From positions 310,001-374,000 of the forward strand of contig NZ_CWHU01000005.1 in the NCBI RefSeq assembly GCF_001182725.1: a DNA stretch of 64,000 nucleotides, read 5' to 3'. The notes beneath the pieces are model-generated. The model made no database searches, had not been told where the DNA came from, and worked only from the letters and a program-made list of their open reading frames with translations. Shown here in pieces: positions 18,061 to 47,498 of the stretch. This DNA is from Anaerococcus jeddahensis. Its GTDB lineage: Bacteria > Bacillota > Clostridia > Tissierellales > Peptoniphilaceae. The translations under genes and the position numbers were made by a program. Position 1 is the stretch's first letter. Each line of letters opens with the position of its first letter.

Positions 18061-18190
18061 ACGTAGAAAAATCCTCAAGCACGAATATCTGAATCCGAAA
18101 ATTGGTGATTTCTAAATTTTAAAATTTGAAATCAAATCAATTTTTTTCGTATGATATTCTTAGCATGAGGATTTGTAAACTTTGCAAACA
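18061..18190. repeat. Dispersed inverted-repeat element, copy 1 (short form)
   Basis: A long imperfect hairpin of about 130 bp. The left arm (18069-18112) contains AAATCCTCA, CAAGCACGAATATCTGA and GATTTC. The right arm (18124-18174) contains GAAATCAAATCAATTT, TATGATATTCTTAGCA and TGAGGATTT. Outer stem, GAATATC/GATATTC stem and ATTG..GATTTC / GAAATC..CAAT stem all pair. The apical part is only about 15 bases. Related copies lie at 37941-38235 and 47320-47498. The region to 18382 holds no gene. Confidence 0.8.
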
Positions 18191-18194
18191 TTTG

Positions 18195-18216
18195 AAACAG
18201 CTTAGGCTGTTTTTTT
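18195..18216 (+). terminator. Terminator after repeat copy 1
   Basis: AAACAGC (18195-18201) and GCTGTTT (18206-18212) pair around a TTAG loop, with a continuing T-tract. It duplicates the lgt terminator sequence at 18039-18057. Confidence 0.75.
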
Positions 18217-18317
18217 ATTGAAAATTTTTATTTTGGGAATTAATACCACTTTTTTGAAAATTCTTCAAAAAAATAGAAAATTTTAAGAAAAATTAGAAAA
18301 AAATAATTTTATAATCC

Positions 18318-18346
18318 TTTACAATTTAAAGATTTTAGTATAAAAT
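18318..18346 (+). promoter_or_regulatory. Promoter of the division cluster
   Basis: TTTACA (18318-18323) and TAAAAT (18341-18346) are separated by 17 bp, just upstream of the MraZ-type boxes. Confidence 0.55.
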
Positions 18347-18353
18347 ATAGGTG

Positions 18354-18379
18354 AAGTGGAAATAAGTGGTAGAAGGTGG
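18354..18379 (+). promoter_or_regulatory. MraZ operator: three GTGG boxes at 10-bp period
   Basis: GTGG occurs at 18356-18359, 18366-18369 and 18376-18379, two of them as AAGTGG, exactly one helical turn apart between the promoter and the mraZ start. MraZ is known to bind direct TGG-containing repeats upstream of its own gene, so this is the likely autoregulatory site. The last box overlaps the ribosome binding site. Confidence 0.7.
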
Positions 18380-18382
18380 GTC

Positions 18383-18796
18383 ATGTTTCTAGGAGAATTC
18401 ATTCATAAATTAGATTCTAAAAATAGAATAATGATGCCAAGTGAATTTAGAGATGATCTTGGAAATGAATTTTATGTAACCAAGGGCCCAGAACGCTCAT
18501 TAGTTTTATATACTATTGAAGAGTTTGAAAAACGTGCAAAAAAGTACGAAGAATTATCCTACCAAAATAAAAACAATAGGGCGATAAAAAGATTGTTTTT
18601 TTCTTCCACTATCAAGGCTTATTTGGATAAACAAGGGCGAGTTTTATTAAATAAGCAATTACGCGACTATGCTAATTTAAACAAAGAGGCTATTATAATC
18701 GGAAATAATTCAAACATTGAAATTTGGGATTTGGATAATTGGAATGATTATATTGGTGATGTTGAAGTGAACTTATCAGAAATTATGGATCAGTAA
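18383..18796 (+). CDS. mraZ: Transcriptional regulator MraZ
   Basis: The 137-residue SpoVT/AbrB-like regulator binds repeats upstream of the division cluster. It has the two MraZ half-domains, MFLGEFIHKLDSKNRIMMP and later KAYLDKQGRVLLNKQLRDYA, each with the D-x-K/Q-x-R/G-R pattern. ATG 18383 is chosen over an upstream in-frame start at 18356. It has an AAGGTGGG ribosome binding site and gives the family N-terminus. It ends 1 bp before rsmH and heads the operon through nrdR. Confidence 0.95.
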   Translation: MFLGEFIHKLDSKNRIMMPSEFRDDLGNEFYVTKGPERSLVLYTIEEFEKRAKKYEELSYQNKNNRAIKRLFFSSTIKAYLDKQGRVLLNKQLRDYANLNKEAIIIGNNSNIEIWDLDNWNDYIGDVEVNLSEIMDQ

Positions 18797-18797
18797 T

Positions 18798-19718
18798 ATG
18801 GAATTTTCTCACAAATCAGTTTTATTAAATGAAACAATAGAAAACTTAAATATAAAAGAAGATGGAATATATGCTGACCTAACTTTGGGTAAGGGAGGCC
18901 ATTCTAAAGAAATTTTAAAAAAATTATCACCAAAGGGTCTTTTAATTGGCTTAGATCAAGATAAGGATGCTATCAAAGCAGCTAGAGAAAATTTGAAAGA
19001 TTTTTCTAATGTCTTATATTTTAATGAGAATTTTGAAAATATTGAAAATGTCCTTGATGAAGCTGGTTTTAATAGGATAGATGGCGCTTTGATGGATATT
19101 GGCGTAAGTTCTTACCAAATTGACAATGGAGATAGAGGTTTTTCTTACATGAAAGACGGTCCTTTGGATATGAGGATGAACGAAGATAATGAGTTAACAG
19201 CAAAACAAATTGTCAATGATTACTCTTTGGATGAGCTTTGGGAAATTTTCTCCAAATATGGCGAGGAAAGATATTCGAAAACAATTGCTAAGGCAATAGT
19301 AGATTACAGAAAAATGCACGAAATTAATACAACTTTACAACTCCGAAATATTGTTATGAAATCTGTAAATACTAACGAAGCTCATCCTGAAAAAAGAGTA
19401 TTCCAAGCTTTAAGAATTGAAGTTAATAGAGAACTTGAAGTTTTGGAAAATACTTTAGAAAAAATTGTAGATCATCTTAACAAAAATGGAAGATTATGTG
19501 TAATAACTTTTCATTCTTTGGAAGACAGGATCGTTAAAAATAAATTTAAAGAGATGAGTAAAAAATGTATTTGTCCACCTGATTTTCCTGTATGCGTTTG
19601 CAATCACGAAAAAAAGGTTAAAATAATTAGCAAAAAACCTATTTTACCAAAAAAAGAAGAACTTAAAGTAAATAGTAGGTCACATAGTGCTAAGCTTAGA
19701 GTTTGTGAGAGGGTTTGA
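18798..19718 (+). CDS. rsmH: 16S rRNA (cytosine1402-N4)-methyltransferase RsmH
   Basis: Methylates N4 of C1402 in 16S rRNA using S-adenosylmethionine. The 306-residue protein begins HKSVLLNETIENL and carries the SAM-binding DLTLGKGGHS (about 27-36), GALMDIGVSSYQID, DMRMN, QALRIEVNRELE and ITFHSLEDRIVK, followed by a CICPPDFPVCVC segment near the C-terminus. This is the standard second gene of the division cluster, read together with mraZ and the ftsL-like gene. Confidence 0.97.
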   Translation: MEFSHKSVLLNETIENLNIKEDGIYADLTLGKGGHSKEILKKLSPKGLLIGLDQDKDAIKAARENLKDFSNVLYFNENFENIENVLDEAGFNRIDGALMDIGVSSYQIDNGDRGFSYMKDGPLDMRMNEDNELTAKQIVNDYSLDELWEIFSKYGEERYSKTIAKAIVDYRKMHEINTTLQLRNIVMKSVNTNEAHPEKRVFQALRIEVNRELEVLENTLEKIVDHLNKNGRLCVITFHSLEDRIVKNKFKEMSKKCICPPDFPVCVCNHEKKVKIISKKPILPKKEELKVNSRSHSAKLRVCERV

Positions 19719-19719
19719 T

Positions 19720-20118
19720 ATGGCAAGCGCTTTGAAAAAAAGAAAAGTTAATAAAAATTTAAATAAAAGAGTAAAGCTAAGTTTGCATAATCAAGCTTCT
19801 TATGATATAAAGTTTAGATGTAATAAACTTCAAAAAAAAGATAGGAAGTTTAAAGTTAGAGTCTTAGCTTTATTATTTTTATCTTTTATTTTTATGGCTT
19901 TTGTTACTATACATAATTATATAAAATTGAATAATAGAAGAAACGAGTATAATAAATTACAAAGTCAATATACATCTTATCAATTAACTAGAGATAGGTT
20001 AAATAAAGACCTTGAAGATTCTGTTAATTTGAAAGAAATTCAAAGATATGCAATGGAAAATCTAGGCATGATTTACGAAAATAAAGATAATGTTGTATAT
20101 CTTAATATTGATAGGTAG
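19720..20118 (+). CDS. FtsL/DivIC-like septum formation protein
   Basis: The 132-residue protein has a highly basic cytoplasmic tail (1-48), one membrane helix (about 50-66) and an extracellular coiled coil (about 70-105). It ends LKEIQRYAMENLGM, a hydrophobic motif typical of FtsL/DivIC/FtsB septum proteins. Its position directly after rsmH is the usual place of ftsL. ATG 19720 is chosen because it follows the rsmH stop by one base. An earlier in-frame start at 19687 would overlap rsmH. Sequence alone does not separate FtsL from DivIC. Confidence 0.8.
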   Translation: MASALKKRKVNKNLNKRVKLSLHNQASYDIKFRCNKLQKKDRKFKVRVLALLFLSFIFMAFVTIHNYIKLNNRRNEYNKLQSQYTSYQLTRDRLNKDLEDSVNLKEIQRYAMENLGMIYENKDNVVYLNIDR

Positions 20119-20123
20119 GAGAA

Positions 20124-21074
20124 ATGGAAAATACAATTTTAATTATTTTAATAAGTTTGGTATTAACTTTGATTTTGGGAAAACTTATTATTCCTATTTT
20201 AAGATCAAGTCATATCGGACAAAATATTAGACAAGAAGGACCAAAAAGTCATTACGGAAAAGCAGGTACACCAACCATGGGCGGTATTATATTTTTAATA
20301 TCAGCACTTGTTTTGACATTGATATTTGTTCCTTTTTCTATGAAAACTTTTATATTACTATTATCAACATTTGGCTTTGGAGCAATTGGTTTTATAGATG
20401 ATTTTAGAAAATTAGTTTTGAAAAGATCATTAGGCCTTACTGCAAAACAAAAAATAATACTTCAAGTTCTTATATCTTTTATAATTGCAGTTTTATGTTT
20501 TATTTACCAAAATGACACGATAACAAAATTATGGATTCCTTTTACAGATATAAGATTAAATGTTTCGATTTTAGGAATTCCAATAATGATGTTTATTATG
20601 ATTGGAACATCAAATGCGGTAAATTTGACTGATGGACTTGATGGACTTTCTAGTCAAGTATCCGTACCAGTATTTTTGACTTTAATTATTTTAAGCCAAA
20701 ATATTGAAGATAAACTATTCGCAAGTATTATGCTTGGAGGAGTTTTAGGATTTTTATTTTACAATTCAAACCCTGCAAGTGTATTTATGGGAGATACAGG
20801 TTCAATGGCAATTGGTGGAGCTGTAGTTGGACTTGCAATAAACATGGGAATGCCTATATTTTTAATTATTCTTGGAGGAGTTTATGTTGCTGAATCATTA
20901 AGTGTAATAATTCAAGTGGCATCATATAAATTTAGAAATAAAAAGAGAATATTTTTAATGACACCAATCCACCATCATTATGAATTGAAAGGATACAAAG
21001 AACCAAAAATAGTTACTGGTTTCACAATAGTATCAGTGATTTTATCTTTGATTACTTTACTCGCAGTATTATGA
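20124..21074 (+). CDS. mraY: Phospho-N-acetylmuramoyl-pentapeptide transferase MraY
   Basis: Makes lipid I from UDP-MurNAc-pentapeptide and undecaprenyl phosphate in the membrane. The 316-residue protein has about ten membrane helices. It carries the aspartate pair in GFIDDFRKLVLKRSLGL (D92/D93), NLTDGLDGL (about 168-176), FMGDTGSM and the histidine motif PIHHHYELKGYKE (about 281-293). It follows the ftsL-like gene by 5 bp and overlaps murD by 4 bp. No ftsI, murE or murF lies between ftsL and mraY, unlike the common gene order. Confidence 0.97.
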   Translation: MENTILIILISLVLTLILGKLIIPILRSSHIGQNIRQEGPKSHYGKAGTPTMGGIIFLISALVLTLIFVPFSMKTFILLLSTFGFGAIGFIDDFRKLVLKRSLGLTAKQKIILQVLISFIIAVLCFIYQNDTITKLWIPFTDIRLNVSILGIPIMMFIMIGTSNAVNLTDGLDGLSSQVSVPVFLTLIILSQNIEDKLFASIMLGGVLGFLFYNSNPASVFMGDTGSMAIGGAVVGLAINMGMPIFLIILGGVYVAESLSVIIQVASYKFRNKKRIFLMTPIHHHYELKGYKEPKIVTGFTIVSVILSLITLLAVL

Positions 21075-22384
21075 AAAAAGTTTTAGTTTACGGATTAGGA
21101 ATTACAGGAATATCAACAGTAAAGACCTTGGACAAATTAGGTTTTAAAGTCTATACTTATGATAAAAATAAAATTAATGACGATAGATTAGAGGGCTATA
21201 ATTATAGCCCTATTTCTGATGTAAAAATTGAAGACAAATATGATTTTGTAGTAAAATCACCTGGCATAAGACCAGATGATGAAATTATTAAAATTTTAGA
21301 AAAAAACAATGAGATAATTACAGATATTGAATTATCACAAAGACTTTTTTCTGATAAAAAAACTATAGCAATTACAGGTACAAATGGAAAAACTACAACT
21401 ACTTCTCTTATAACTTATGTTTTAAATGAAAGTGGTAAAAATGCAATAAGTGTTGGAAATATTGGAGAAGGTATTCTTTGGCAAATGCAAAATAAAAAAG
21501 GAGTATTTGTTGAAGAAATTTCATCATTTCAACTTCATAACACCAAATATTTTAAGCCACACATAGGAGGAATTTTAAATATTACACCAGATCACATTGA
21601 TTGGCATGGTTCATTTGAAAACTATATTGAAGATAAATTAAAGCTTGTCATAAATCAAGATGAAAATGACTATTTGATCCTTAATCATGATGATGAAATT
21701 TTAAGAAAAAATAAGGATAAGTTTAAAGGTAAAATTTATGAATTTTCTATAAAGGAAGAAGTTCAAAGAGGAATTTATTTAAAAAATGATAGTCTTTATT
21801 TAAAAGATGAAAAAGAAATATTTTTATTAAATAGAGAAGACTTAAATATTGTAGGAGATCACAATTTATTAAACGCATCTTGTGCAATTCTTTGCCTATA
21901 TTTGTTTGGCCTTGATTTAGATGAAATTATCAAACACACAAAAACTTTTAAGGCAATTAGTCATAGGCTTGAATTTGTTAAAAAAATAAAAAATGTTTCG
22001 TTTTTTAATGATTCAAAGGCTACAAATGTAGATAGTGCCATAAAAGCTATAAATAGTTTTGATAAAAATATTATTTTAATAGCTGGTGGCTATGATAAAA
22101 AAATTGATTATTCTCCCTTATTTGAAAATTCTAAAGGAAAGATCAAAGCCATGATTTTATTGGGTCAAACTAAGGGGATTCTAGAAGATCTTTGTAAAAA
22201 ATATAAAATAAATTATTATATAGTTAATAATATGAAAGAAGCAGTAGATAAATCTTTTGAAATTATGAAAGATTTTGATACGGTTTTATTATCACCAGCA
22301 AGTGCAAGCTGGGGCATGTATGATAATTATATGCAAAGAGGAGATGACTTTAAAAATAGAGTTTTAGAAAAGGAAAATATATGA
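21071..22384 (+). CDS. murD: UDP-N-acetylmuramoyl-L-alanine--D-glutamate ligase MurD
   Basis: Adds D-glutamate to UDP-MurNAc-L-Ala in the cytoplasm. The 437-residue protein has an N-terminal Rossmann-like UDP-binding part, the ATP loop GTNGKTTTT (about 103-111), the middle-domain EISSFQLH and NITPDHIDWHG, and a C-terminal domain with FNDSKATNVDSAI and LLSPASASWGMYDNY. ATG overlaps the mraY stop (ATGA) and its own stop overlaps the murG start, which implies coupled translation. Confidence 0.97.
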   Translation: MKKVLVYGLGITGISTVKTLDKLGFKVYTYDKNKINDDRLEGYNYSPISDVKIEDKYDFVVKSPGIRPDDEIIKILEKNNEIITDIELSQRLFSDKKTIAITGTNGKTTTTSLITYVLNESGKNAISVGNIGEGILWQMQNKKGVFVEEISSFQLHNTKYFKPHIGGILNITPDHIDWHGSFENYIEDKLKLVINQDENDYLILNHDDEILRKNKDKFKGKIYEFSIKEEVQRGIYLKNDSLYLKDEKEIFLLNREDLNIVGDHNLLNASCAILCLYLFGLDLDEIIKHTKTFKAISHRLEFVKKIKNVSFFNDSKATNVDSAIKAINSFDKNIILIAGGYDKKIDYSPLFENSKGKIKAMILLGQTKGILEDLCKKYKINYYIVNNMKEAVDKSFEIMKDFDTVLLSPASASWGMYDNYMQRGDDFKNRVLEKENI

Positions 22385-23475
22385 AAGTTATAGTATCTGG
22401 TGGAGGAACTGGTGGACACATATATCCAGCCATAGCCATGTGCCAAAAATTAGAAGAAGAAATAGAAAATTTGGAAATTTTATATGTTGGCCTAAATGAT
22501 GGTCCAGAAAAGAGAATAGTAAAAAAATATGGTTATAAATTTAAAGCCATAGATGCTATGGGCCTTCCAAGAAGAATTTCAAAGAGACTTTTCAAATCAC
22601 TTTTTACTAATTTTAAAGGATTTAATGAAGCAAAAAAAATAATAAAAGAATTTAAACCAGATTTGGTAATAGGTACTGGAGGATATGTTTGTGCCCCAAT
22701 TCTTTACCAAGCAAGTAAAAAACATATTAAAACTTTGATTCACGAATCAAATTCTTTTCCTGGTGTTACAACAAGGTTTTTATCAAACAAAGTTGATTTA
22801 GTTTGCATTTCATTTGAAGAGGCAAAAAAACATTTGAAAAACCAAAATAACGTATATGTAACAGGAAATCCAGTAAGAACAAGTTTTAATACTTCTTATA
22901 GTCAAAAAGATTTAGAAAATCTTGGCATAAAAAAAGATAGACCAGTTGTATTTTCTTTTGGTGGATCAAATGGATCAAAATTTTTGAATGAAGCAGTTAG
23001 TCAAATGAGTGAGCTTTTGGATGGAAAATTTTACCTACTTCATCAAACAGGACCCAAAAATTACGATGATTTTATAAAAAATACCAAAGAAAATAAATAT
23101 ATAAAGGCATTTTCTTATATTGATAATATAGATTTGTTTTATGCAGTAAGTGATCTTGTAATAGCATCATCAGGGGCGATGAGTTTAAGTGAAATTTCAA
23201 ATCTAAAAAAAGCTTCAATTTTAATTCCAAAAGCCTACACAACTGAAAATCATCAAGAATACAATGCAAGATCATATCTTGAAAAAGGTGCGTGTTCTAT
23301 GATTTTGGAAAAAGAATTAAATGGAAAAATCCTTTATGATAATATCCTAAGTATAGTAGAAGATAAAGAAAAATTAAAGGATATGGGAGAAAAAGCATCT
23401 CTTTTACAAAATCCAAATGCAAGTGATGATATTTTTAATCTTATAAAAAAACTAATGGGAATAGATAATGAGTAA
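22381..23475 (+). CDS. murG: Undecaprenyldiphospho-muramoylpentapeptide beta-N-acetylglucosaminyltransferase MurG
   Basis: Converts lipid I to lipid II on the cytoplasmic face of the membrane. The 364-residue GT28 enzyme has the GGGTGGHIYPA loop (7-17), GTGGYVCAP, the LIHESNSFPG acceptor segment, and the donor-binding FSFGGSNGSK, SGAMSLSE and ENHQEYNAR motifs. It overlaps murD by 4 bp and ftsQ by 8 bp. Confidence 0.97.
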   Translation: MKVIVSGGGTGGHIYPAIAMCQKLEEEIENLEILYVGLNDGPEKRIVKKYGYKFKAIDAMGLPRRISKRLFKSLFTNFKGFNEAKKIIKEFKPDLVIGTGGYVCAPILYQASKKHIKTLIHESNSFPGVTTRFLSNKVDLVCISFEEAKKHLKNQNNVYVTGNPVRTSFNTSYSQKDLENLGIKKDRPVVFSFGGSNGSKFLNEAVSQMSELLDGKFYLLHQTGPKNYDDFIKNTKENKYIKAFSYIDNIDLFYAVSDLVIASSGAMSLSEISNLKKASILIPKAYTTENHQEYNARSYLEKGACSMILEKELNGKILYDNILSIVEDKEKLKDMGEKASLLQNPNASDDIFNLIKKLMGIDNE

Positions 23476-24247
23476 TAAAAATAGGAAAAGAAAAAAATTA
23501 AAAAGAAAAAATAAAGTTTTTACACCATTTTATATAATTTTTTTATTATTTATTGTCGCATCAATTTTAGTATTTAATTTATTTAACCACGATTATTATA
23601 AAATTTCTCAAGTTTACATAAAGGGAAATAAGATTTTAACAAAAGATAGAATTTTAAATAAGTTAAATAATCCTATGGGAACAAATATAATTTTATATGA
23701 CAAAGAAGAAGGCATAGAAAATCTTAAAAAAGAAGATCTTATTAAAAGCGTTTCAATAGAAAAAGAATGGCCTGATAAAATAACTGTTAAAGTAAAAGAA
23801 GAATATCCATATATGATTGCTCGCTACAAAAAAGACAATTATCTACTTGCAAATACGGGAAAAGTATTGGATAAAACTTCAAAAGTTGAAAATGATTCTT
23901 TACTAAAAATAAAGGGTTTAAAAAGTAAACCACAAATAGGAAAAAAATTTAGCACTAATAAAAATATAATTAAATTTGTTGAATCAATACAAAAGCTAAA
24001 ATATGCTAATGACATAAAAGAAATTGACTTGGAAAACTATCATGAAATTGGTATAATAATAAATGATATTCAGATTAATTTCGGAGATTTAAAAAATTAT
24101 AATTATAAACTAAAGCTGCTTGATTCGATTTTGAAAGATTTAGAAAATAAGAAATTAAATGCTTATTCTATTAGTTTTGATAAAGGAAAGAATCCGGTAG
24201 TTGAAGTTGAAGAAAAAAGTCTTGACGAAAAAGATGAAAATAATTAA
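23468..24247 (+). CDS. FtsQ/DivIB-type cell division protein
   Basis: The 259-residue bitopic protein has a lysine/arginine-rich cytoplasmic tail (1-18), one membrane helix (about 20-39) and a POTRA domain (about 43-112; [37 protein letters not shown]). A beta domain ending in a charged tail follows. DivIB stabilises the divisome through DivIC/FtsL. Its place between murG and ftsZ matches the Gram-positive division cluster. No ftsA follows. Confidence 0.9.
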
Positions 24248-24279
24248 AAAATATTATTCTTAATGAAACGGGGGAGAAG

Positions 24280-25362
24280 ATGGCAAATATTAATATGGAA
24301 GTAGAAAATAACGCCTTAGCCAAAATAAAAGTAATTGGAGTTGGTGGAGGTGGAAATAATGCTATAAGCAGAATGAGAGAGGGTGGCCTTTCTGGAGTAG
24401 AATTTATAGCACTAAACACAGACCTTCAAACTTTAAATGAAGCAAATGCTGACGTAAAATTACAAATTGGTGCAAAGCTTACAAGAGGACTTGGAGCTGG
24501 AGCTAATCCTGAAATTGGTGAAAAAGCTGCTGAAGAAAGTGAATCAGAAATTGATCAGTCACTTAAGGGAGCAGATATGGTATTTATCACTGCCGGAATG
24601 GGTGGTGGAACTGGTACTGGAGCAGCCCCTGTTGTAGCAAAAAAAGCAAAAGAACAAGGTATACTTACAGTAGGTGTTGTAACTCGTCCTTTTACATTTG
24701 AAGGAAGAAAAAGACAAACATCTGCAGAAGGTGGAATAGAAGCTTTAAAAGAAAGCGTTGATACATTAATTACAATTCCAAACGATAGACTTTTACAAAT
24801 CGTAGAAAAAAGAACTTCAATGGTTGATGCTTTTAAAATGGCTGACCAAGTACTTATGGATGCTGTAAGTGGTATTTCTGAACTTATAGCTGTGCCAAAT
24901 GTTATTAACCTTGACTTTGCCGATGTTAAATCAATTATGTCTGACCAAGGAATAGCTCACATGGGAATTGGCAGAGCAAGCGGTGAAAATAGAGCGGTAG
25001 ATGCTGCAAAAGCTGCAGTAAATTCTCCACTTCTTGAAACATCAATCGAAGGAGCTAATGCTGTATTATTAAACGTAACAGCAGCAGAAGTTGGTCTAAT
25101 GGAAGCTAACGAAGCAGCAGAATTAATAAGAGATCACATTGATTCAGATGCTAACATCATATTTGGTGTAGGTAGCGATGAATCCTTGGGAGAGGATATT
25201 AAAATTACAGTAATAGCTACTGGATTTGACCAAGATAATCAAAGAAGAGAAGTAATAGAAACTAGAAGACCTTCACAAAGTGCAAGTCAAAGACCAGCAC
25301 AAAGAAGTCAAAAATCTTCAAATCCATTTGATGATATAGATCTTCCAGACTTCTTAAAATAA
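24280..25362 (+). CDS. ftsZ: Cell division protein FtsZ
   Basis: Tubulin-like GTPase that forms the Z ring. The 360-residue protein has [12 protein letters not shown], the tubulin signature [13 protein letters not shown] (about 107-119), [15 protein letters not shown] and the T7 loop [11 protein letters not shown]. After a short glutamine/serine-rich linker it ends [11 protein letters not shown], the conserved C-terminal peptide that binds partner proteins. The linker is short (about 25 residues). There is a strong GGGGGAG site before the ATG. Confidence 0.98.
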
Positions 25363-25363
25363 A

Positions 25364-25819
25364 ATGAAGTGTCCATATTGCGACTCAAATGATACAAAAG
25401 TTATAGATTCTAGAGCAACTGAAGATAATCACGCCATTAGAAGAAGAAGGCTTTGCCAAACTTGTAATAAAAGATTTTCAACATACGAAAGATATGAAGA
25501 TCAAATTTTGATGGTTGTAAAAAAAGACAACACCAGAGAATCTTTTGATAGGTCAAAACTTATTAGTGGTATTGTAAAATCCTGCGAGAAAAGGCCGGTA
25601 AGTATGGAAGAAATTGAAAAAATTGCTGATCAAGTTGAAGTTTCTATAAATCATATAGGTAAAAAGGAAGTATCGTCCACTACCATTGGAAAATTTGTCA
25701 TGGAACATCTAAAAAAAATAGATCCTGTAGCCTATGTAAGATTTGCATCAGTTTATAGGGAATTTAAAGATGTTGAAAGTTTCTATAAAGAAATTAAAAA
25801 TTTAAAAGATAAAAATTAG
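25364..25819 (+). CDS. nrdR: Transcriptional repressor NrdR
   Basis: Zinc-finger and ATP-cone repressor of ribonucleotide reductase genes. The 151-residue protein begins MKCPYCDSNDTKVIDSRATE with cysteines 3 and 6, then C31 and C34 in LCQTCNKRF, forming the zinc ribbon. It continues with VVKKDNTRESFDRSKL and an ATP-cone domain to about residue 140. It starts one base after ftsZ. Its nrd targets are not in this window. Confidence 0.97.
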   Translation: MKCPYCDSNDTKVIDSRATEDNHAIRRRRLCQTCNKRFSTYERYEDQILMVVKKDNTRESFDRSKLISGIVKSCEKRPVSMEEIEKIADQVEVSINHIGKKEVSSTTIGKFVMEHLKKIDPVAYVRFASVYREFKDVESFYKEIKNLKDKN

Positions 25820-25935
25820 GAATTTAGGGCTTTTGCGTAAAATTGATAAAATCAAAATTTGAAAATTAAAACTTTAATATTATATTAAATCTTTAAATTT
25901 TCTTTTGATTTTATCATTAGCATTAGTCCTTTTTT
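25818..25935. terminator. Long hairpin terminator-like inverted repeat after nrdR
   Basis: A perfect 14-bp inverted repeat TGATAAAATCAAAA / TTTTGATTTTATCA (25844-25857 with 25903-25916) encloses further A/T pairing. The outer bases AGGA...TCCT with a following T7 run close the structure. It ends the division-cluster transcript ahead of rarA. It is much longer than the other terminators in the window and does not share the boxes of the three-copy repeat. Confidence 0.6.
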
Positions 25936-25951
25936 TGAAAGATTGGATATA

Positions 25952-36112: not shown

Positions 36113-37917
36113 TGAAGAAAAAAGAAAATATTAGAAATTTTTCGATTATTGCTCACATTGACCACGGAAAATCTACTCTTGCAGATAGGCTTATAGAAAA
36201 AACTCAGTCTGTTGCAAAAAGAGAAATAAATGATCAAATGCTAGATAGCATGGAGCTTGAGCAAGAAAGAGGAATTACCATAAAATTAAAGTCTGTAAAG
36301 TTAAAATATAAGGCAAAAGACGGAAAAATTTATGATTTAAATTTAATTGACACTCCAGGCCACGTCGACTTTACTTATGAAGTTTCAAGATCACTTAAAG
36401 CTTGCGAAGGAGCAATTTTGGTTGTTGATGCATCCCAAGGTGTAGAAGCTCAAACTTTGGCAAATACTTACCTTGCTCTTGAACAAGATTTGGAAATTTT
36501 GCCAGTTTTAAATAAAATTGATCTTCCAAGTGCAAGGGTTGAAGAAACAAAAGAGGAAATAGAAAATCAAATTGGACTTGATACAGAAAATATTCCATTA
36601 ATTTCAGCCAAAACTGGATTAAATATTGAAGATGTTCTTGAAGATATTATAGAAAATGTCCCAGCTCCGGAAGATCATGACGATAAGCCTCTAAAGGCTT
36701 TGATTTTTGATTCATATTATGATTCCTATAGGGGAGTAATTTGCTATGTTAGAATTTTTGAAGGAAGTGTAAAAGCAGGAGACGAAATTTTGATGATGGC
36801 AAGCGGAAAATCCTATGAAGTAACTGGCGTTGGTTATACTATGAAAAATAGGATTGAAACCAAAGAATTAAGAAGTGGTGATGTAGGATTTATTGAAGCA
36901 AGCATTAAAGATATTAGAAATGCGAGAGTTGGTGATACAATTACCTTAAAAAATAATCCAACACAAAAAGCCTTATCAGGTTACAAGGAAGTTTTGCCTA
37001 TGGTATATTCAGGAATTTATCCTGCTGAGGGCGAATCATTTAATAAATTAAAAGATTCTTTGGAAAAGCTTCAAGTAAATGATGCATCTTTAATTTTTGA
37101 ACAAGAAAACTCCCAAGCCTTGGGCGTTGGACTAAGATGTGGATTTTTGGGACTTTTGCATATGGATATTATTACCGAAAGACTTGAAAGAGAATATGAT
37201 TTGGATATTATTGCTACAGCTCCTTCAGTAATTTATAGGGTAAAAACAAAAGGCCACGAAGAGAAAAAATTAGAAAATCCTAATGATTTTCCACCACCAT
37301 CAGAAATAGATTATGTAAAAGAACCAATAACAATTTCTGAAATTATGACACCAAAAGAATATATAGGACCTGTAATGGAACTTGCTCAATCAAGAAGGGG
37401 AGATTTAATTGACATGTCCTATATGGATGAAAATAGGGTTATAATAAAATATAAAATTCCTTTAAACGAAGTAATTTATAACTTTTTTGATTCTTTAAAA
37501 TCAAGATCAAAAGGATATGCTTCTTTGGATTATGAAGTTGTAGATTATGAAGAAAGCAATTTAATAAAACTTGATATAAAAATAAATGAAGATAGGGTTG
37601 ATGCTTTATCTACAATTGTTCACAAAGATTTTGCCTATGCTAGGGGAAGATCAATTGTTGAAAAATTAAAAGATCAAATTCCAAGACAACAATTCGCAAT
37701 TCCAATTCAAGCTACAATCGATTCAAAAGTTATAGCAAGAGAAACTGTAAAAGCTTTGAGAAAAGATGTAATTGCGAAATGTTATGGTGGAGATATATCA
37801 AGAAAGAAAAAACTTCTAGAAAAACAAAAAGAAGGAAAGAAGAGAATGAGACAATTAGGAAGCGTACAAATCCCACAAGATGCCTTCCTTGCTGTATTGA
37901 AATATGATGATGAATAA
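36112..37917 (+). CDS. lepA: Elongation factor 4 (LepA)
   Basis: Ribosome-dependent GTPase. The 601-residue protein has G1 AHIDHGKST (about 13-21), [32 protein letters not shown], an EF-G-like domain set, and the LepA-specific C-terminal domain ending [33 protein letters not shown]. It is translated from ATG overlapping the lepB stop. The second copy of the dispersed inverted-repeat element follows its stop. Confidence 0.97.
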
Positions 37918-38269
37918 AGCTTTTACCTAGCTTCAAACTTAGAAAAACCTTCAAGCACGAATATCTGACTACAAAAATTTTTGATTTCTAAATCAAAAAC
38001 TTCTAAAAACCGTAAACTCGCTAACGCGATGACAGATAAATAGCTTAAAATTGTGCCAGTGGTTCAATTTTAATATTTATCCCTCGAAACAAAGCGAAGA
38101 TTTAAAATATAATTGAAATTAATTTATTTAAGGAATTATCATTGCTTTAAATTTTAGAGTGCGATTTTTAACGAAGTTTTTAATTTGAAATCAAGTAAAT
38201 TTTTTCCGTATGATATTCTTTGCATGAAGGTTTTCTAAATTAAAAAAGTGAAGTTAGTATAGCTTTTTT
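37916..38269. other. Possible lepA terminator stem flanking repeat copy 2
   Basis: AAAGCT (37916-37921, overlapping the lepA stop) and AGCTTTTTT (38261-38269) could pair across the whole repeat element. They would be the arms of a terminator into which the element was inserted. The stem is only 6 bp, so this is tentative. Confidence 0.35.
37941..38235. repeat. Dispersed inverted-repeat element, copy 2 (long form)
   Basis: The left arm (37941-37987) holds AAACCTTCA, CAAGCACGAATATCTGA and GATTTC. The right arm (38185-38235) holds GAAATCAAG, AAATTTTTT, TATGATATTCTTTGCA and TGAAGGTTT. Relative to copies 1 and 3 the outer stem bases are changed on both sides and still pair. The apical part is about 190 bases and contains a small perfect-looking hairpin (AAAATTG..CCAGTGG..CAATTTT, 38047-38071). 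The 377-bp gap between lepA and hemW contains no gene. Confidence 0.8.
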
Positions 38270-38294
38270 ATTTTTGAAAATTTAAGGAGAAAAT

Positions 38295-39479: not shown

Positions 39480-39493
39480 ATGAGGTGAAAATA

Positions 39494-40492: not shown

Positions 40493-40509
40493 TAAGGTAG
40501 GTGTTTAAG

Positions 40510-41061
40510 GTGGACAATGAAAAAAAGCATGATGAAAATGTAAAAGAAGCTAAAGATTTAAATGAAGATATAGAAGAAGAATTAGAAGAAATTGATGCTG
40601 AAATAGTTGATGAAGACGGTAATGTTGATGAAGAATTGTCAAATGACGATGACAATGAGTACAAAGAAAAATACCAAAGACTATTAGCAGATTTTACTAA
40701 TTTCAAAAAAAGAGAAGAAAAAGCAAGGTCTGATTTTAAAAAGTTTGCTGCATCAAACTTAATCGAAGAACTTTTACCAGTTTTAGATAATTTTGACAGG
40801 GCACTTAAAGATCAAGACCAAGATGATTCTTTTGTTCAAGGAATCATAATGATAAGAGATTCTTTTTGGAAAGTTTTGGAAAAAGAAGGCTTGGAAGAAA
40901 TAAAATCTGATGGAGTAGAATTTGATCCAAACTTCCACCACGCTTTTCAAACAGAAGAAAACGAAGATTTCAAATCAAATTATATTATAGAAACCTATCA
41001 AAAAGGATACAAACTAAATGATAGAGTAATTAGACCAAGCATGGTTAAAGTTGCAAAATAG
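40510..41061 (+). CDS. grpE: Nucleotide exchange factor GrpE
   Basis: DnaK co-chaperone. The acidic N-terminal coiled coil (about 10-70, EDIEEELEEIDAEIVDEDG) is followed by YQRLLADFTNFKKREEKARSDF and the beta-wing domain LPVLDNFDRAL, FWKVLEKEGLEEI, FDPNFHHAFQT. GTG at 40510 is favoured as the start, with TAGGTG spaced six bases upstream. GTG at 40501 would leave no room for a ribosome binding site. The gap to dnaK is 12 bp. Confidence 0.95.
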   Translation: MDNEKKHDENVKEAKDLNEDIEEELEEIDAEIVDEDGNVDEELSNDDDNEYKEKYQRLLADFTNFKKREEKARSDFKKFAASNLIEELLPVLDNFDRALKDQDQDDSFVQGIIMIRDSFWKVLEKEGLEEIKSDGVEFDPNFHHAFQTEENEDFKSNYIIETYQKGYKLNDRVIRPSMVKVAK

Positions 41062-41073
41062 GAGGAGAATATT

Positions 41074-42894
41074 ATGGCAAAAATTATAGGAATTGACTTA
41101 GGAACAACAAACTCAGCTGTTGCCGTTATGGAAGGTGGGGATTCAACAATAATCCCAAATACAGAAGGAAATAGAACAACACCATCAGTTGTAGCTTTTA
41201 CAAAAGATGGAGAAAGACTTGTTGGAGAAACAGCAAAAAGACAAGCAATAACAAATCCTGATAGAACAATCTCATCAATTAAAAGAGAGATGGGAACTGA
41301 TTATAAAACTAGTGAAATTGATGGAAATTCATACACACCAGAAGAAGTTTCAGCTATGATTTTACAAAAATTAAAATCAGATGCAGAAGGTTATTTAAAT
41401 GATACAGTTACTGATGCAGTAATTACTGTTCCTGCTTACTTTACAGATGCTCAAAGACAAGCTACAAAAGATGCTGGAAAAATTGCAGGCTTAAATGTAA
41501 AAAGAATTATAAACGAACCAACAGCAGCAGCTCTTGCATACGGAATGGATAAAGAAACTGACCAATCAAAAATCATGGTTTATGACCTTGGTGGTGGTAC
41601 ATTTGACGTATCAATTCTAGAAGTTGGAGATGGAGTATTTGAAGTATTATCTACAAGAGGAAACAATAAACTAGGTGGAGACGACTTTGATAATAGATTA
41701 GTTGATTATTTAGCAGCTGAATTTAAAAAAGAAACTGGCGTAGATTTAACAAAAGATCTTACAGCTATGCAAAGACTAAAAGATGCAGCAGAAAAAGCTA
41801 AAAAAGAATTATCATCAACAAAAACAACAAATGTAAATCTACCATTTATTACAGCAGTTGATGGACAACCAGTTCACTTAGACTTAACAGTTACAAGAGC
41901 AAAATTTGATGAATTAACTCACGATTTAGTTGAAGCAACAAGAAAACCAGTTGAAGATGCCCTAAAAGATGCTTCTTTATCATCAAGCGATATAGAAAAA
42001 GTATTACTTGTAGGTGGCTCATCAAGAATTCCTGCAGTTCAAGATTTAGTTAAAAATATAATTGGAAAAGAACCACAAAGAGATATAAACCCAGATGAAT
42101 GTGTTGCACTTGGTGCTGCAATTCAAGGTGGAGTTTTGACAGGAGAAGTTAAAGATTTGTTACTCCTTGACGTTACACCACTTTCACTAGGAATTGAAAC
42201 TCTTGGTGGAGTTGCTACAAAATTAATCGAAAGAAATACAACAATTCCAACTAAAAAATCTCAAATCTTTACAACTGCTGCAGATGGACAAACTGATGTA
42301 GATATTCACGTTGTACAAGGTGAAAGAGAAATGGCAGCAGACAACACTACACTTGGTAGATTCCAACTTACAGGAATTCCTGCAGCAAGACGTGGAGTTC
42401 CACAAATCGAAGTTACATTTGATATAGATGCAAATGGTATTGTAAATGTATCTGCAAAAGACCAAGGAAGTGGAAAAGAACAAAAAATTACTATTACTTC
42501 ATCAACAAACTTGACTGAAGAAGAAATAGATAAAAAAGTAAAAGAAGCTGAAAAATTTGCTGAAGATGATAAGAAGAAAAAAGAAAGTATTGAAGTTAAA
42601 AACAATGCTGAATCATTAGTTTATCAAGCAAGAAAAACTCTTGAAGAAGCAAAAGTTGAAGGTGGCGAAAAAGATAAGATTGAAGAAAAAATCAAAGATC
42701 TTGAAGCAAGCATAAAAGCTGACAATACTGAAGATATCAAAGCAAAAACAGAAGCTCTACAACAAGAAATCTACTCAATGAGTGAAGCAATGTATAAAAA
42801 TGCTCAAGCAAGTCAAGAAGGTCAAAACGCTGGAAAAGCAGACGATGATGTAGTAGATGCTGATTATGAAGTTGTAGATGATGACGAAGAATAA
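41074..42894 (+). CDS. dnaK: Chaperone DnaK (Hsp70)
   Basis: The 606-residue chaperone begins [22 protein letters not shown]. It has the ATPase-domain boxes [10 protein letters not shown] and [12 protein letters not shown], the substrate-binding domain ([14 protein letters not shown], about 365-505) and the helical lid. It ends with the acidic tail [20 protein letters not shown] site precedes the ATG. The terminator at 42911-42950 ends the hrcA-grpE-dnaK unit, so dnaJ is transcribed from its own promoter. Confidence 0.98.
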
Positions 42895-42910
42895 AAATAA
42901 ATAAAAATTA

Positions 42911-42950
42911 AAGAATAGGAAGCCGTGCTTCTTATTCTTTATTTTTATTT
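42911..42950 (+). terminator. Terminator of the hrcA-grpE-dnaK operon
   Basis: AAGAATAGGAAGC / GCTTCTTATTCTT pair around a CGT loop, followed by a T-rich tail. Confidence 0.88.
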
Positions 42951-42967
42951 TAAATTTTAAAATACAA

Positions 42968-42995
42968 TTTGATTTTTTTATCAAAGGGGTATAAT
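42968..42995 (+). promoter_or_regulatory. Candidate dnaJ promoter upstream of the leader element
   Basis: TTTGAT (42968-42973) and TATAAT (42990-42995) are 16 bp apart. No CIRCE is visible. The promoter lies about 280 bp before dnaJ, so the inverted-repeat element would be in the 5' leader. Confidence 0.5.
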
Positions 42996-43040
42996 AGATG
43001 AGCTTAGATAAAAAGATAAAATTATAAATTAAGATACTAC

Positions 43041-43262
43041 AAATAAATTAGAAATAATTTATTTAGACTGTTGACAAACTAAATTTCCACCCATTTCGAG
43101 CGAACGTAGTGAGTCGAGAAATCTCATGAGATCTCTCCATGCGTTCGTTTCACTCACTTAGTCGAGATGGGTTTTAGCGTGATTTTATTTTTTAATTATT
43201 AATGAATTACTAAACTGAATTTGTCTACATTCTGAATAAATTAGCAATAATTTATTTTTTTT
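43041..43262. repeat. Inverted-repeat element in the dnaJ leader
   Basis: Outer imperfect inverted repeats join AATTTATTT-type sequence with G-T-T-GACAAAC (43068-43078) on the left and G-T-A-GACAAA (complement of 43221-43229) on the right. Inside, CCCATTTCGA (43090-43099) pairs with TCGAGATGGG (43162-43171), and ATCTCATGAGAT (43121-43132) is a perfect palindrome. AGTGAGT/ACTCACT and GAACG/CGTTC can also pair but in crossing order. The 382-bp gap between dnaK and dnaJ holds this, a terminator and a promoter, and no gene. Confidence 0.7.
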
Positions 43263-43276
43263 ATATTGGAGGATAA

Positions 43277-44392
43277 ATGAAAGACCCATATGAATTGCTC
43301 GAAGTTGACAAAAATGTCAGCGAAGATGAATTAAAAAGAAAATATAGGAAACTTGCAAAAAAATACCATCCAGATTTAAATCCAGATGATGATAAGGCTC
43401 AAGAAAAATTTAAAGAAATTTCACAAGCCTATGAAATTTTATCTGATCCTCAAAAAAAACGTCAATACGATACCTATGGTGCTGCAGCCTTTGAAAACGG
43501 CGGTGGAGCTGGCGGATTTTCTGGTGATTTTAGTGGATTTGGTGATATATTTGGAGATATTTTTGGAGATATTTTCTCTCAAGGAAGAAGCTATAATAGA
43601 AAAAGGCCAAGAAAAGGATCTGATATCCAACAAGTTGTTAAATTAACTTTCAAAGAATCAGCTTTTGGAATTTCTAAAGAAATCCAAGTTAGAAGAGAAG
43701 TTGAATGTGAAGCTTGCCATGGAAAAGGTGCGAAAGATGAAAGTAAAATCAAAACATGCCCTAAGTGTAATGGGTCTGGAGTTATAAATAATATTAGCCA
43801 AACCCCATTTGGAACAGTTTCTCGTCAAACTACTTGTGACAATTGCCATGGATCTGGAGAAATTATTGAAGAAAAATGTCCAGATTGTGATGGTAGTGGA
43901 AGAAAAATTAAAAATGAAAAAATAAAAATTGACATACCATCTGGTGTTGAAAATGATTCTGTAATGAGAATAGTTGGTAAGGGAAATGTTGGTGAAAATG
44001 GTGGATCTTACGGAGATTTATATATAATCTTAAAAGTTGAAGAGCACGATATTTTCAAAAGAGATGGACTTGATATTTATTATGAAATGCCAATTTCATT
44101 TGCAACAGCAACTTTAGGCGGAAATGTAGATGTGCCAACCCTAACAACAACTCAAGAATATCACGTCCCAGCAGGAACTCAAACTGGAACTAAATTTAGG
44201 ATTAAAAATGAAGGAATAAAATCTGACAGGCTTAAAAGGCAAGGAGACCTTTATTTTTATGTAAAAGTTATTACTCCAACAAAATTATCCAAAGAGCAAA
44301 AAGAAAAATTAAAAGAATTTGCTGAAATTTCTGGCGATGAGGTAAAAGAAGATAAGAACTTTTTTGAAAAATTGAAGGATTTGTTTGATTGA
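43277..44392 (+). CDS. dnaJ: Chaperone DnaJ (Hsp40)
   Basis: DnaK co-chaperone. The 371-residue protein has a J domain with H31-P32-D33, a glycine/phenylalanine region (about 75-105, GGGAGGFSGDFSGFGDIF), four CxxCxGxG zinc repeats (CEACHGKG, CPKCNGSG, CDNCHGSG, CPDCDGSG), and the C-terminal substrate-binding domains. TTGGAGG precedes the ATG. It overlaps mtaB at TGATG. Confidence 0.97.
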   Translation: MKDPYELLEVDKNVSEDELKRKYRKLAKKYHPDLNPDDDKAQEKFKEISQAYEILSDPQKKRQYDTYGAAAFENGGGAGGFSGDFSGFGDIFGDIFGDIFSQGRSYNRKRPRKGSDIQQVVKLTFKESAFGISKEIQVRREVECEACHGKGAKDESKIKTCPKCNGSGVINNISQTPFGTVSRQTTCDNCHGSGEIIEEKCPDCDGSGRKIKNEKIKIDIPSGVENDSVMRIVGKGNVGENGGSYGDLYIILKVEEHDIFKRDGLDIYYEMPISFATATLGGNVDVPTLTTTQEYHVPAGTQTGTKFRIKNEGIKSDRLKRQGDLYFYVKVITPTKLSKEQKEKLKEFAEISGDEVKEDKNFFEKLKDLFD

Positions 44393-45690
44393 TGAATAAA
44401 ACATTTAATATAAAAACCCTAGGCTGTAAGGTTAACCAATATGAATCTGAAGCCATTGAAGAATTATTCAAAAAAAGAGGTTTTGAAAAAAAAGAAAAAA
44501 ATGCTGATATTTACGTTATAAATACTTGCACAGTTACAAACATGAGTGATAGAAAATCTAGACAAACAATTTCTAAGGCTAGAAAAGAAAATAAAGATGC
44601 AATAATAGCAGTTATTGGTTGTTATTCACAAGTGAAAGCTGATGAAGTAAAAAATATTGACGGCGTAGATATAATTTTGGGATCTCGTAACAAGGAAGAA
44701 GTAGTTGAGCTTTGCGAAAATTTCATTAAAAATAATGAAAAAATGGAAGATGTAGAAGAATTTTCAATTGGAGAAGAAATTGAAGATTTGGAAATTTCAA
44801 ATCAGGCTGACATGACCCGTGCTTATATGAAAATTCAAGACGGTTGTAATATGTACTGTTCATATTGTTTGATTCCTTATGCTAGAGGAAATATTGCGTC
44901 AAGAGATTTGGTTTCAATAATTGATGAGGCAAAAAGACTTAGGGATAATGGATATAAGGAAATTGTCCTTACTGGAATCCATGTTGCAAGCTATGGAAAA
45001 GATTTTGATTTGGATATTTCTCTAATTGATGTGATTGAACACATAGCAAAAATTGATGGAATAGAAAGAATTAGACTTTCATCAATGGAGCCAAGGCATA
45101 TTGATAGGGAATTTTTACAAAGAATGAAAGATACAAAAAAAGCCTGTGATCATTTTCATTTATCCCTTCAATCAGGTTCGGATGATGTTTTAAAACTTAT
45201 GAATAGAAAATATAATACAAAAATTTTCAAAGAAAAGGTAGATTTGATTAGGGAATATTTTCCAAATGCTGGTCTTACAACTGATATAATCGTAGGTTTT
45301 CCAAATGAAAGCGAAAAAAATCATGAGGAAACCAAAAAATTTGTAAAAGAAATAAAATTTTCAAAAACTCATCTTTTCAAATATTCTAAAAGAGATGGAA
45401 CCAAGGCCGCTGATATGAAAAATCAAGTTGATGGAAATATCAAAAAAAGAAGGTCTAAGGAATTATCAATTATTGAAACAGAGATTTCTCATGAATTTTT
45501 GGATAAGCAAATTGGAAAAACTTTATCAGTTTTATTTGAAACAAAAACAGAGCTTGACGGATATAAGTCAGGATATTCTACAAATTATTTAAGGGTTCAC
45601 ACAAAAGATGATGTTGAAATAAATGAAATTAAAGATATAAAAATTATCCAAAGAATTGATGATTATTTGATTGGTCAAATAATTTCTTAA
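44392..45690 (+). CDS. mtaB: tRNA (N6-L-threonylcarbamoyladenosine(37)-C2)-methylthiotransferase MtaB
   Basis: Radical SAM enzyme that converts t6A37 to ms2t6A37. The 432-residue protein has the N-terminal UPF0004 domain (KTLGCKVNQYESE with the first cluster cysteine, INTCTVTNMSDRKSRQ, VIGCYSQ), the SAM cluster cysteines in CNMYCSYCLIPYARG, and a C-terminal TRAM domain. ATG 44392 overlaps the dnaJ stop; an in-frame TTG three bases earlier is less likely. The Sua5/YwlC gene at 59.8 kb supplies the earlier t6A step. Confidence 0.95.
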   Translation: MNKTFNIKTLGCKVNQYESEAIEELFKKRGFEKKEKNADIYVINTCTVTNMSDRKSRQTISKARKENKDAIIAVIGCYSQVKADEVKNIDGVDIILGSRNKEEVVELCENFIKNNEKMEDVEEFSIGEEIEDLEISNQADMTRAYMKIQDGCNMYCSYCLIPYARGNIASRDLVSIIDEAKRLRDNGYKEIVLTGIHVASYGKDFDLDISLIDVIEHIAKIDGIERIRLSSMEPRHIDREFLQRMKDTKKACDHFHLSLQSGSDDVLKLMNRKYNTKIFKEKVDLIREYFPNAGLTTDIIVGFPNESEKNHEETKKFVKEIKFSKTHLFKYSKRDGTKAADMKNQVDGNIKKRRSKELSIIETEISHEFLDKQIGKTLSVLFETKTELDGYKSGYSTNYLRVHTKDDVEINEIKDIKIIQRIDDYLIGQIIS

Positions 45691-45715
45691 GTCAGCTATG
45701 CTGGCTTTTTTTATT
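45691..45715 (+). terminator. Terminator after mtaB
   Basis: AGTCAGC / GCTGGCT pair around a TAT loop (one G-T pair), followed by T7. Confidence 0.85.
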
Positions 45716-45751
45716 TGTTTTTTTAAAATAAATTCTTAGATATGAAAGATT

Positions 45752-45780
45752 TTGAATTTTATTTTAGTTTGATTTATAAT
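45752..45780 (+). promoter_or_regulatory. cstA-type gene promoter
   Basis: TTGAAT (45752-45757) and TATAAT (45775-45780) are separated by 17 bp, 32 bases upstream of the ATG. Confidence 0.65.
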
Positions 45781-45812
45781 TTAAGAGAATTAATTTTTAA
45801 TAAGGAGGATAT

Positions 45813-47267
45813 ATGATATTATTTTTTATTGGTCTTGCAATCCTTATTTTTGGAGCTATACTTTATTCAAAAGTTGTTGAAAGTCAATTTCAACCAGATG
45901 ATAGAGAAACCCCAGCTGTAAGAAAAGCAGACGGTGTTGATTATGTTACTATGAGTAAAAAGAAAAATTGGTTGATAAATTTATTAAATATTGCCGGTAC
46001 TGGACCAATTTTAGGTCCTATACAAGGGATTTTATTTGGACCGATTGCATTTTTAGCTATTCCTTTGGGATGTGTTTTTGCAGGAGCTGTTCATGATTAT
46101 GCAACAGGTATGATTTCTATGAGAAATGGTGGAAGTCAGGTTCCAAAGTTAGTTGGTAAATATTTAGGAACAAATGTCAAACGATTTTATAATATTGTTA
46201 TAGCAATTTTATTGCTTCTAACCGGAACAGTTTTTGTTTATACACCAGGAGATTTGATTGCACATGATATTATGGGGCTTAGTCCTAATTCAAATGTTAT
46301 TTGGATAATATATGGGATAATTTTTATTTACTACATACTCTCAACAGTCCTACCAATTGATAAATTAATTGGAAGAATCTATCCAATCTTTGGAGCATTC
46401 TTGCTTATTTCATCACTTGGAGTATTTACAGGGATTCTAATGAAAGGGCTTTCTCATTTACAATTTGAAGGCTATGGCTTATTTTATGATCATCCAGATG
46501 GACAAAAATTTATACCTTCATTTTTTATAACTGTAGCTTGTGGTATTCTTTCAGGATTTCATGGCTCTCAAGTAACCCTTGTCTCAAGAACAGTTGCTAA
46601 AGAAAAGGAAGCTATGGGAACTTTTTATTCTACAATGATTACAGAAGGTTTTATAGCTATGGTTTGGGCAGCAGGTGCCTTAGTTTTATTTTCATCAGGA
46701 AAATCAGCTCTAGATACAGCTGGTACCTTAATGGTTGGACAAATTTCTAGAAATTTCATGGGCTCAGTTGGTGGATATTTAGCAATAATGGGTGTAATAG
46801 CACTTCCAATTACAAGTGGTGATACAGCCTTTAGGTCATTGAGATTAATTGTTTCAGAAGAATTAAATATTGACCAAAGATCAGGTTTTAAAAGAGCAAT
46901 AGTTGCAGCAGTTTTATTTGTACCTGCAGTAATTATTCTTGTTTTTGCTAAGTCTAATCCTAATGGATTTAATATTTTATGGAGATATTTTGGATTTACA
47001 AATCAATTTGTGGCTATATTTGCCCTTGCTGTTGCAACGACATACTTGATTATAAATAATAAGAAATATTTGATGACCTTGATACCAGGAATTTTTTACA
47101 CATTTATTGTATTTACCTTTATAATAAGTGCAAAAAAGATTGGTTTTGGTCTTGATTTAAAAATTGCCTATGTATTAGGTGCAATAATAGCAGTTTTATA
47201 TGGTGTATTTATTGTAAAAAATGCAAATAAAAGAAGAAACGAAATAAAAAATATTATATTAGATTAA
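45813..47267 (+). CDS. Carbon starvation protein CstA family transporter
   Basis: The 484-residue membrane protein has about 13 helices. It has the CstA signature near the N-terminus: FQPDDRETPAVRKADGVDY, then LLNIAGTGPILGPIQGILFGPIAFLAIPLGCVFAGAVHDY. GFHGSQVTLVSRT and TSGDTAFRSLRLI lie in later helices. Family members import peptides or pyruvate. The substrate here cannot be told. It is a single-gene unit with its own promoter, AAGGAGG site and terminator. Confidence 0.92.
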   Translation: MILFFIGLAILIFGAILYSKVVESQFQPDDRETPAVRKADGVDYVTMSKKKNWLINLLNIAGTGPILGPIQGILFGPIAFLAIPLGCVFAGAVHDYATGMISMRNGGSQVPKLVGKYLGTNVKRFYNIVIAILLLLTGTVFVYTPGDLIAHDIMGLSPNSNVIWIIYGIIFIYYILSTVLPIDKLIGRIYPIFGAFLLISSLGVFTGILMKGLSHLQFEGYGLFYDHPDGQKFIPSFFITVACGILSGFHGSQVTLVSRTVAKEKEAMGTFYSTMITEGFIAMVWAAGALVLFSSGKSALDTAGTLMVGQISRNFMGSVGGYLAIMGVIALPITSGDTAFRSLRLIVSEELNIDQRSGFKRAIVAAVLFVPAVIILVFAKSNPNGFNILWRYFGFTNQFVAIFALAVATTYLIINNKKYLMTLIPGIFYTFIVFTFIISAKKIGFGLDLKIAYVLGAIIAVLYGVFIVKNANKRRNEIKNIILD

Positions 47268-47275
47268 TTCATTAA

Positions 47276-47301
47276 AAGATCAGCCTTGCTGGTCTTTTTT
47301 A
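47276..47301 (+). terminator. Terminator of the cstA-type gene
   Basis: AAAAGATCAGC / GCTGGTCTTTTTT pair around a CTT loop with a T-tract, right before repeat copy 3. Confidence 0.85.
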
Positions 47302-47319
47302 ATAAATAAAAAAACTAGA

Positions 47320-47498
47320 ACGTAGACAAACTCTCAAGCACGAATATCTGACTTCAAAAATTGTTGATTTCTAAATTTGAAATTCTAAAATCGCAAACGC
47401 TCGAACAGTGGGATTTTTGGCGAATTTTCAAAATTGAAATCAAATCAATTTTTTTCGTATGATATTCTTAGCATGAGGGTTTATATACTTTGTCAACA
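47320..47498. repeat. Dispersed inverted-repeat element, copy 3
   Basis: The left arm (47320-47372) has CGTAGACAAACTCTC, CAAGCACGAATATCTGA and GATTTC. The right arm (47434-47498) has GAAATCAAATCAATTT, TATGATATTCTTAGCA, TGAGGGTTT and CTTTGTCAACAG. The outer stem AAACTCTCA / TGAGGGTTT pairs throughout with one T-G. The ends read GTAGACAAA and, from the other side, GTTGACAAA, like the dnaJ leader element. The apical insert is about 60 bases. Confidence 0.8.

Follow-up and report, generated by a model that had tools for sequence, protein, structure and literature searches.

We analysed a window of DNA (the whole stretch under study, 64,000 nucleotides of contig NZ_CWHU01000005.1 of Anaerococcus jeddahensis) that contains three related intergenic elements built as long inverted repeats, each preceded by a plus-strand open reading frame ending at position 18040 (lgt), 37917 (lepA) and 47267, respectively. 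A preliminary description of this DNA had placed all three copies between genes, downstream of a plus-strand gene, and had recognized them by a left and a right sequence box; rereading of the sequence agrees with this placement and finds the right boxes in all three copies as described. The left box CAAGCACGAATATCTGA occurs at positions 18076, 37952 and 47335, i.e., three matches in the window compared to 0.13 expected from shuffled sequences. The bounds given initially were too tight, the elements ending at approximately the positions given in Table 1, and hairpins stand beyond those ends. Table 1 also includes a sister element; A. obesiensis carries the element under study (L053) at a hairpin that appears to be the same as the one at the sister element.

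Table 1. Positions of the putative MITEs and their flanking hairpins in the window
Feature	Position	Strand	Basis and remarks
Copy 1, left terminator hairpin AACAGTTTAGGCTGTT	18040..18055	+	Sequence; a single such hairpin at empty sites
Copy 1, putative MITE, internally deleted form	18057..18194	+	Boxes, ends; flank repeat score 16
Copy 1, right hairpin AACAGCTTAGGCTGTT, running into its own T-run	18196..18216	+	Sequence
Copy 2, left-edge hairpin	37917..37933	+	Sequence; duplication not above background, score 7
Copy 2, putative MITE, long form, right edge approximate	37934..38251	+	Boxes
Copy 2, right-edge hairpin-like arm pair with T-run	38252..38270	+	Sequence
Sister element, left hairpin copy AATAAATTAGAAATAATTTATT	43042..43063	+	Sequence
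Sister putative MITE, reversed, with ends of a similar kind, immediately before dnaJ	43064..43234	-	Ends with 2 mismatches
Sister element, right hairpin copy, 21/22 bases as in the left one, then T-run	43235..43256	+	Sequence
Copy 3, entire terminator-like hairpin including a T-run, 15 nt to the left of the element	47275..47300	+	Sequence
Copy 3, putative MITE, short form	47316..47503	+	Boxes, both ends
Copy 3, right-edge hairpin, a different one	47504..47524	+	Sequence; no duplication, score 5

Among the three window copies, duplication of the flanking hairpin is clear only at copy 1, where 15 of 16 bases agree between the two flanks; copies 2 and 3, with their low scores, do not show it.

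The element is not limited to the three copies noticed at first. A search for the boxes in the whole genome and in related genomes, which the preliminary description had proposed, found the left and right boxes paired at 13 places in the 1.9-Mb genome of A. jeddahensis, and the core of the left box in 7 of the 31 Anaerococcus genomes searched (5 to 22 matches each). Five of these seven genomes appear to be those of A. ihuae, A. obesiensis ph10, A. vaginalis ATCC 51170, A. vaginalis PH9 and A. hydrogenalis DSM 7454. The fetched loci contain 104 distinct two-box elements in 68 locus clusters. The former number is slightly inflated because the fragmented assembly G002 contributes near-identical rows that probably represent the same places (L060/L061, L200/L201 and L202/L203), and the 68 clusters are the safer number, even if they are approximate and one of them merges neighbouring loci. 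The 104 elements exclude a 506-nt chance pairing (L205, with the same sequence in L208) as well as the unpaired or partial matches L111, L114, L116 and L204; L198, which duplicates L106, was collapsed into one with it, and L071 and L104, whose flanks consist of N, were retained and counted as misses in the flank comparisons. The consensus element starts with CAGAGCGTAGACAAACCC, ends with TACTTTGTCAACAGTCTG, measures 140–325 nt including the ends, and contains no transposase gene of its own. The suggestion that the apical part varies as if cargo could be gained or lost fits the larger sample, which comprises 77 short copies, 24 long copies with an extra apical stretch, and 3 internally deleted copies that lack the central part of the hairpin, copy 1 among them. 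The apical stretch of the long form (copy 2, at 37934–38251, in the window) has a GATAAAT...ATTTATCCCT-like hairpin motif in common with some sister MITEs (L218, L219, L220 and L225), as if a module had moved between element families.

A hairpin usually stands at both edges of the element, and the two hairpins of one site are alike. Flank repeats with a local-alignment score of at least 12 were found at 66 of the 104 elements and in 47 of the 68 clusters, compared to 1.0% of cross-locus pairs, a null set that includes some pairs from the same locus and reaches a maximum of 48. The threshold is missed by 38 of the 104 elements, window copies 2 and 3 included, which counts against the reading that we favour below. 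Exact repeats of 12–22 bp abut both ends of 34 elements, and 26 of these repeats can form a stem of 5 bp or longer. When each repeat is compared with shuffled versions of itself, no more than 15 of the 34 fold better than 95% of the shuffles (p ≤ 0.05), which likewise counts against that reading. A run of at least five T residues is found in the right flank of 85 of the 104 elements and in the left flank of 29, and at 8 of the 104 elements the flanks align better in inverted orientation by 4 points or more. Locus L219 contains, at about 2800–3280, three related hairpins that alternate with two sister elements, indicating repeated hits on one terminator.

The flanking hairpins were also studied by comparing filled sites with their empty counterparts, as the preliminary description had recommended with target duplications in mind. 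At four loci, relatives that do not carry the element have one hairpin at the corresponding place. Downstream of lgt, a lone terminator hairpin is present in A. vaginalis PH9 and A. hydrogenalis, and the order hairpin, element, hairpin is found in A. jeddahensis, A. ihuae and A. obesiensis; in A. vaginalis ATCC 51170 an assembly gap lies between two hairpins. At a second locus, A. vaginalis ATCC 51170 is filled and A. obesiensis is empty, the upstream flanks are 96% identical, and the difference at the hairpin consists of the element together with an additional copy of AGGAGAAAATTATTTCTCC in ATCC 51170. Lone hairpins occur at this locus also in PH9, A. ihuae and genome G016, in A. hydrogenalis two hairpin copies enclose a sister element of the opposite orientation, and the locus is rearranged in A. 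jeddahensis. The same two strains present the same picture at two more loci, one filled in A. obesiensis (L083) and the other in ATCC 51170 (L073). Exact direct copies of the hairpin, with empty counterparts, are found at L052 and L083. The two flanking hairpins of L073 are exact reverse complements of each other, even in the loop, and the empty site, whose flank is 99% identical, has the loop in the right-hand orientation. At this locus, as at L288/L289, both flanks thus form one perfect inverted repeat, and its left loop is flipped relative to the empty site, which looks like DNA-level correction between inverted arms.

The elements were linked to an autonomous transposon through their outermost right end, allowing up to three mismatches. 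Matches to this end occur in 17 of the 31 genomes and include other multi-copy families. Two of the 20 loci fetched, both in genome G008, carry an insertion sequence with a 492-aa open reading frame that encodes an IS1182-family transposase; the protein scores 435.6 bits with model NF033551 (cut-off 270) and contains DUF772 and DDE domains. The insertion sequence at L249 is 1,597 bp long, and each of its ends is identical to that of the short element at 17 of 18 positions, in the same left and right arrangement. Transposases matching the IS1182 model are present in 15 of the 31 genomes of the genus, 8 of them above the cut-off. A. ihuae has an open IS1182 transposase frame in a 1,527-bp element with a right end unlike that of the MITE. 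The search of the A. jeddahensis genome for an IS1182 transposase gave no match, which counts against the reading favoured below: mobilisation in this genome could be current only if the gene had escaped the search.

Other routes to a transposase-bearing relative were tried and rejected. The inner right box, allowing at most one mismatch, is matched in 13 of the 31 genomes, but the fetched matches turned out to be short elements, copies that are truncated or broken by N (L111, L114 and L116) and one partial copy (L204), and the matches read in other species (L209–L213) have no left box. L232 of A. obesiensis was considered as a relative bearing an open reading frame, which encodes adenine deaminase. 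Together with the C-terminal part of a purine permease, this gene is enclosed by IS1182-like ends, and an identical 23-bp hairpin sequence stands at either flank, an arrangement that looks like a carried metabolic cassette. Loci L216 and L221 have a 407-aa open reading frame between MITE-type ends, i.e., one transposon within another; in L216 it encodes an IS110-family transposase.

Loci with an IS1182 transposase are themselves flanked by palindromic repeats in a number of cases. Among the 55 such loci examined (30 at 16 exact bases and 32 at 12, 7 being common to both), a palindromic flanking repeat was found at 10 loci from several genera. In Anaerococcus these are L235 (25 bp), L236 (20 bp), L237 (21 bp), L249 (22 bp) and L261 (imperfect); in other genera they are L297 (24 bp), L300 (20 bp), L302 (22 bp), L303 (44 bp) and L315 (27 bp). 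The repeat at L303 is a near-perfect palindrome with a 21-bp stem flanking an IS1182-type element and is the longest such duplication that we have seen. The other 45 loci, many of which are fragments, have no exact palindromic repeat, which counts against the favoured reading; they include L301, a seven-copy, 434-bit element of genome G076, and a group of eight loci with a frame of 522–523 aa (L239, L240, L250, L252, L262 and L317–L319), in which no repeat longer than 13 bp was found. Judging from these flanks, duplication of the whole hairpin may be a habit of part of the IS1182 family.

We consider it likely (with a probability of about 0.9) that the repeats are a gene-less MITE that depends on an IS1182-family transposase acting in trans and that its insertion involves a predicted foot-to-foot cut of a hairpin, by which the whole stem-loop is duplicated. 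This reading draws on the copy number, the shared ends, the hairpin repeats in the flanks, the four filled and empty comparisons and the duplicated palindromes at transposase-bearing relatives, from which we infer the movement. In the proposed mechanism, the transposase would mobilise the MITE and cleave the hairpin at both of its feet, corresponding to pathway b of Wan et al. 2017, and these cuts would leave the entire stem-loop duplicated with the element between the copies. Transcripts would then read through the left hairpin into the element, and the right hairpin and its T-run would keep termination working. Since insertion regenerates a hairpin, a terminator that has been hit once is likely open to further hits.

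The orientation of the elements bears on how the target is read. With the gene context of each cluster judged from its first member, 38 of the 68 clusters have only a co-oriented gene upstream, 2 have only an opposed gene downstream, 18 have both and 10 have neither. At even odds, the probability of at most 2 out of 40 is 7e-10, a value to be read with the clusters not being fully independent; sister elements occur in the reversed orientation as well. A bias of 38:2 is not expected from a bare cruciform, which is symmetric, and in this respect it counts against the favoured reading; the T-run or transcription may be read. A more general proposal, which we regard as possible but rather doubtful, is that of a structure-reading system in which the transposase would cut the extruded terminator hairpin foot to foot, the hairpin would set the length of the duplication (up to 44 bp), polarity would be read from the T-run or from transcription, and terminators would serve as safe, self-renewing landing pads for several MITE families.

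The preliminary description had emphasized that the stems vary but stay paired, and had taken the compensatory changes as a sign of selection on a folded hairpin of RNA or DNA. The corresponding alternative is that the repeats are a conserved structured RNA (a 3' UTR or a small RNA) under selection, with the flanking hairpins being its own termination signals. This was assessed in an alignment of 55 of the 104 elements (one per cluster, no N, about 185–230 nt, the 24 long copies being left out), where the mean column identity is 91% and 97.4% of the pairs in the hairpin are standard. Changes on both sides are seen at 12 of the 58 pairs, compared to a mean of 2.9 in shuffles (none of 500 shuffles was as high) and 2–9 pairs in slid controls; the shuffles do not include phylogeny and may be exceeded by related sequences even if there is no structure. 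This excess, the high column identity and the 38 clusters with a co-oriented upstream gene alone speak for a structured RNA, and the excess counts against the favoured reading. The statement that each outer stem pairs fully is too loose, copy 3 requiring a T.G wobble in AAACTCTCA/TGAGGGTTT, and columns 16/178 of the outer stem, on which the preliminary description had laid stress, form no standard pair in 37 of the 55 representatives. Moreover, of the 35 two-sided cells, 11 trace to a single linked difference between subfamilies (columns 77/111), and 7 fall on columns 16/178. Other evidence against a structured RNA is that orthologous sites of close relatives keep a plain terminator without the element, that internally deleted copies exist, and that the ends are common to a transposase-bearing element. 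Searches against Rfam at gathering scores gave nothing but a tRNA in the window, and a loose threshold gave only matches below the cut-off in seven loci (L001, L003, L005, L218, L219, L220 and L225). Flipping of a loop would serve no purpose under selection on an RNA stem, so L073 points to DNA-level correction, and template switching or mismatch correction between arms could produce compensatory-looking changes within the element too. Arm correction at the DNA level, together with subfamily history, likely explains the remaining paired change at least as well as selection on the fold. We therefore do not take selection on a folded form, DNA or RNA, as the main account, and we consider a structured RNA very improbable. 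Still slightly less probable is that the element is mobile but the hairpin pairs formed only after insertion, through gene conversion or template switching involving the terminator and a copy. The inverted hairpins of L073 and the 8 elements with better inverted alignment speak for this; the exact direct copies beside empty sites at L052 and L083 and the palindromic repeats at transposase-bearing copies speak against it.

The MITE that we propose can be compared with several known systems. The IS1182-family insertion sequence of the same clade (L249) resembles it in its ends and in the duplicated palindromes that flank it, but is about 1.6 kb long and encodes a transposase. Group IIC introns insert just 3' of terminator stem-loops in a single orientation, which is similar to the orientation-biased placement at terminators seen here; they are not known to make a target duplication, and no intron match was found in the window at Rfam cut-offs. 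The target duplications of IS1182 elements are reportedly variable in the ISfinder family table, and duplication as such may therefore already be on record. In the accessible parts of two papers on staphylococci (PMC4923244 and PMC5678879), the IS1182-family elements IS1272 and TnSha1 are described as targeting hairpins, often terminators, with no sequence consensus, which is like the situation at the MITE sites. According to the same portions, however, IS1272 deletes or replaces the hairpin and makes no target duplication, whereas the hairpin is duplicated around the MITE, and the filled and empty pairs show no replacement of the IS1272 type. TnSha1 is described there in both orientations in one terminator, unlike the biased MITE; Furi et al. 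(PMC4923244) report, in the sections available, deletions, no duplication and both orientations of insertion. Wan et al. 2017 (PMC5678879), in the part available, draw duplication of the whole hairpin as a model (pathway b), a possible outcome of cruciform attack. The outcome at the MITE sites is that of pathway b, and IS1272 represents the opposite one. Bacterial MITEs as treated in a review (PMC10969869) are similarly short, gene-less, intergenic repeats forming long hairpins, but the available text of the review names other families, with 0 occurrences of IS1182. Within the accessible portion of the open-licence literature, our search found neither an IS1182-type MITE, nor this element in Anaerococcus, nor natural duplication of a whole hairpin by an IS1182 element.

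Targeting of terminators by IS1182 members is known already; what we regard as new is whole-hairpin duplication by a MITE, combined with a 38:2 bias in orientation. The elements provide a natural series of sites with this outcome, for which close relatives offer empty sites, partners with a transposase exist and the duplications coincide with the hairpins, and thereby a tractable case of a DDE transposase that would recognise structure and not sequence. They also advise caution in that paired variation between inverted arms can stem from DNA-level processes and not from selection on RNA alone. For the bacteria that carry them, they show how a parasite could settle beside genes yet leave the terminator behind.
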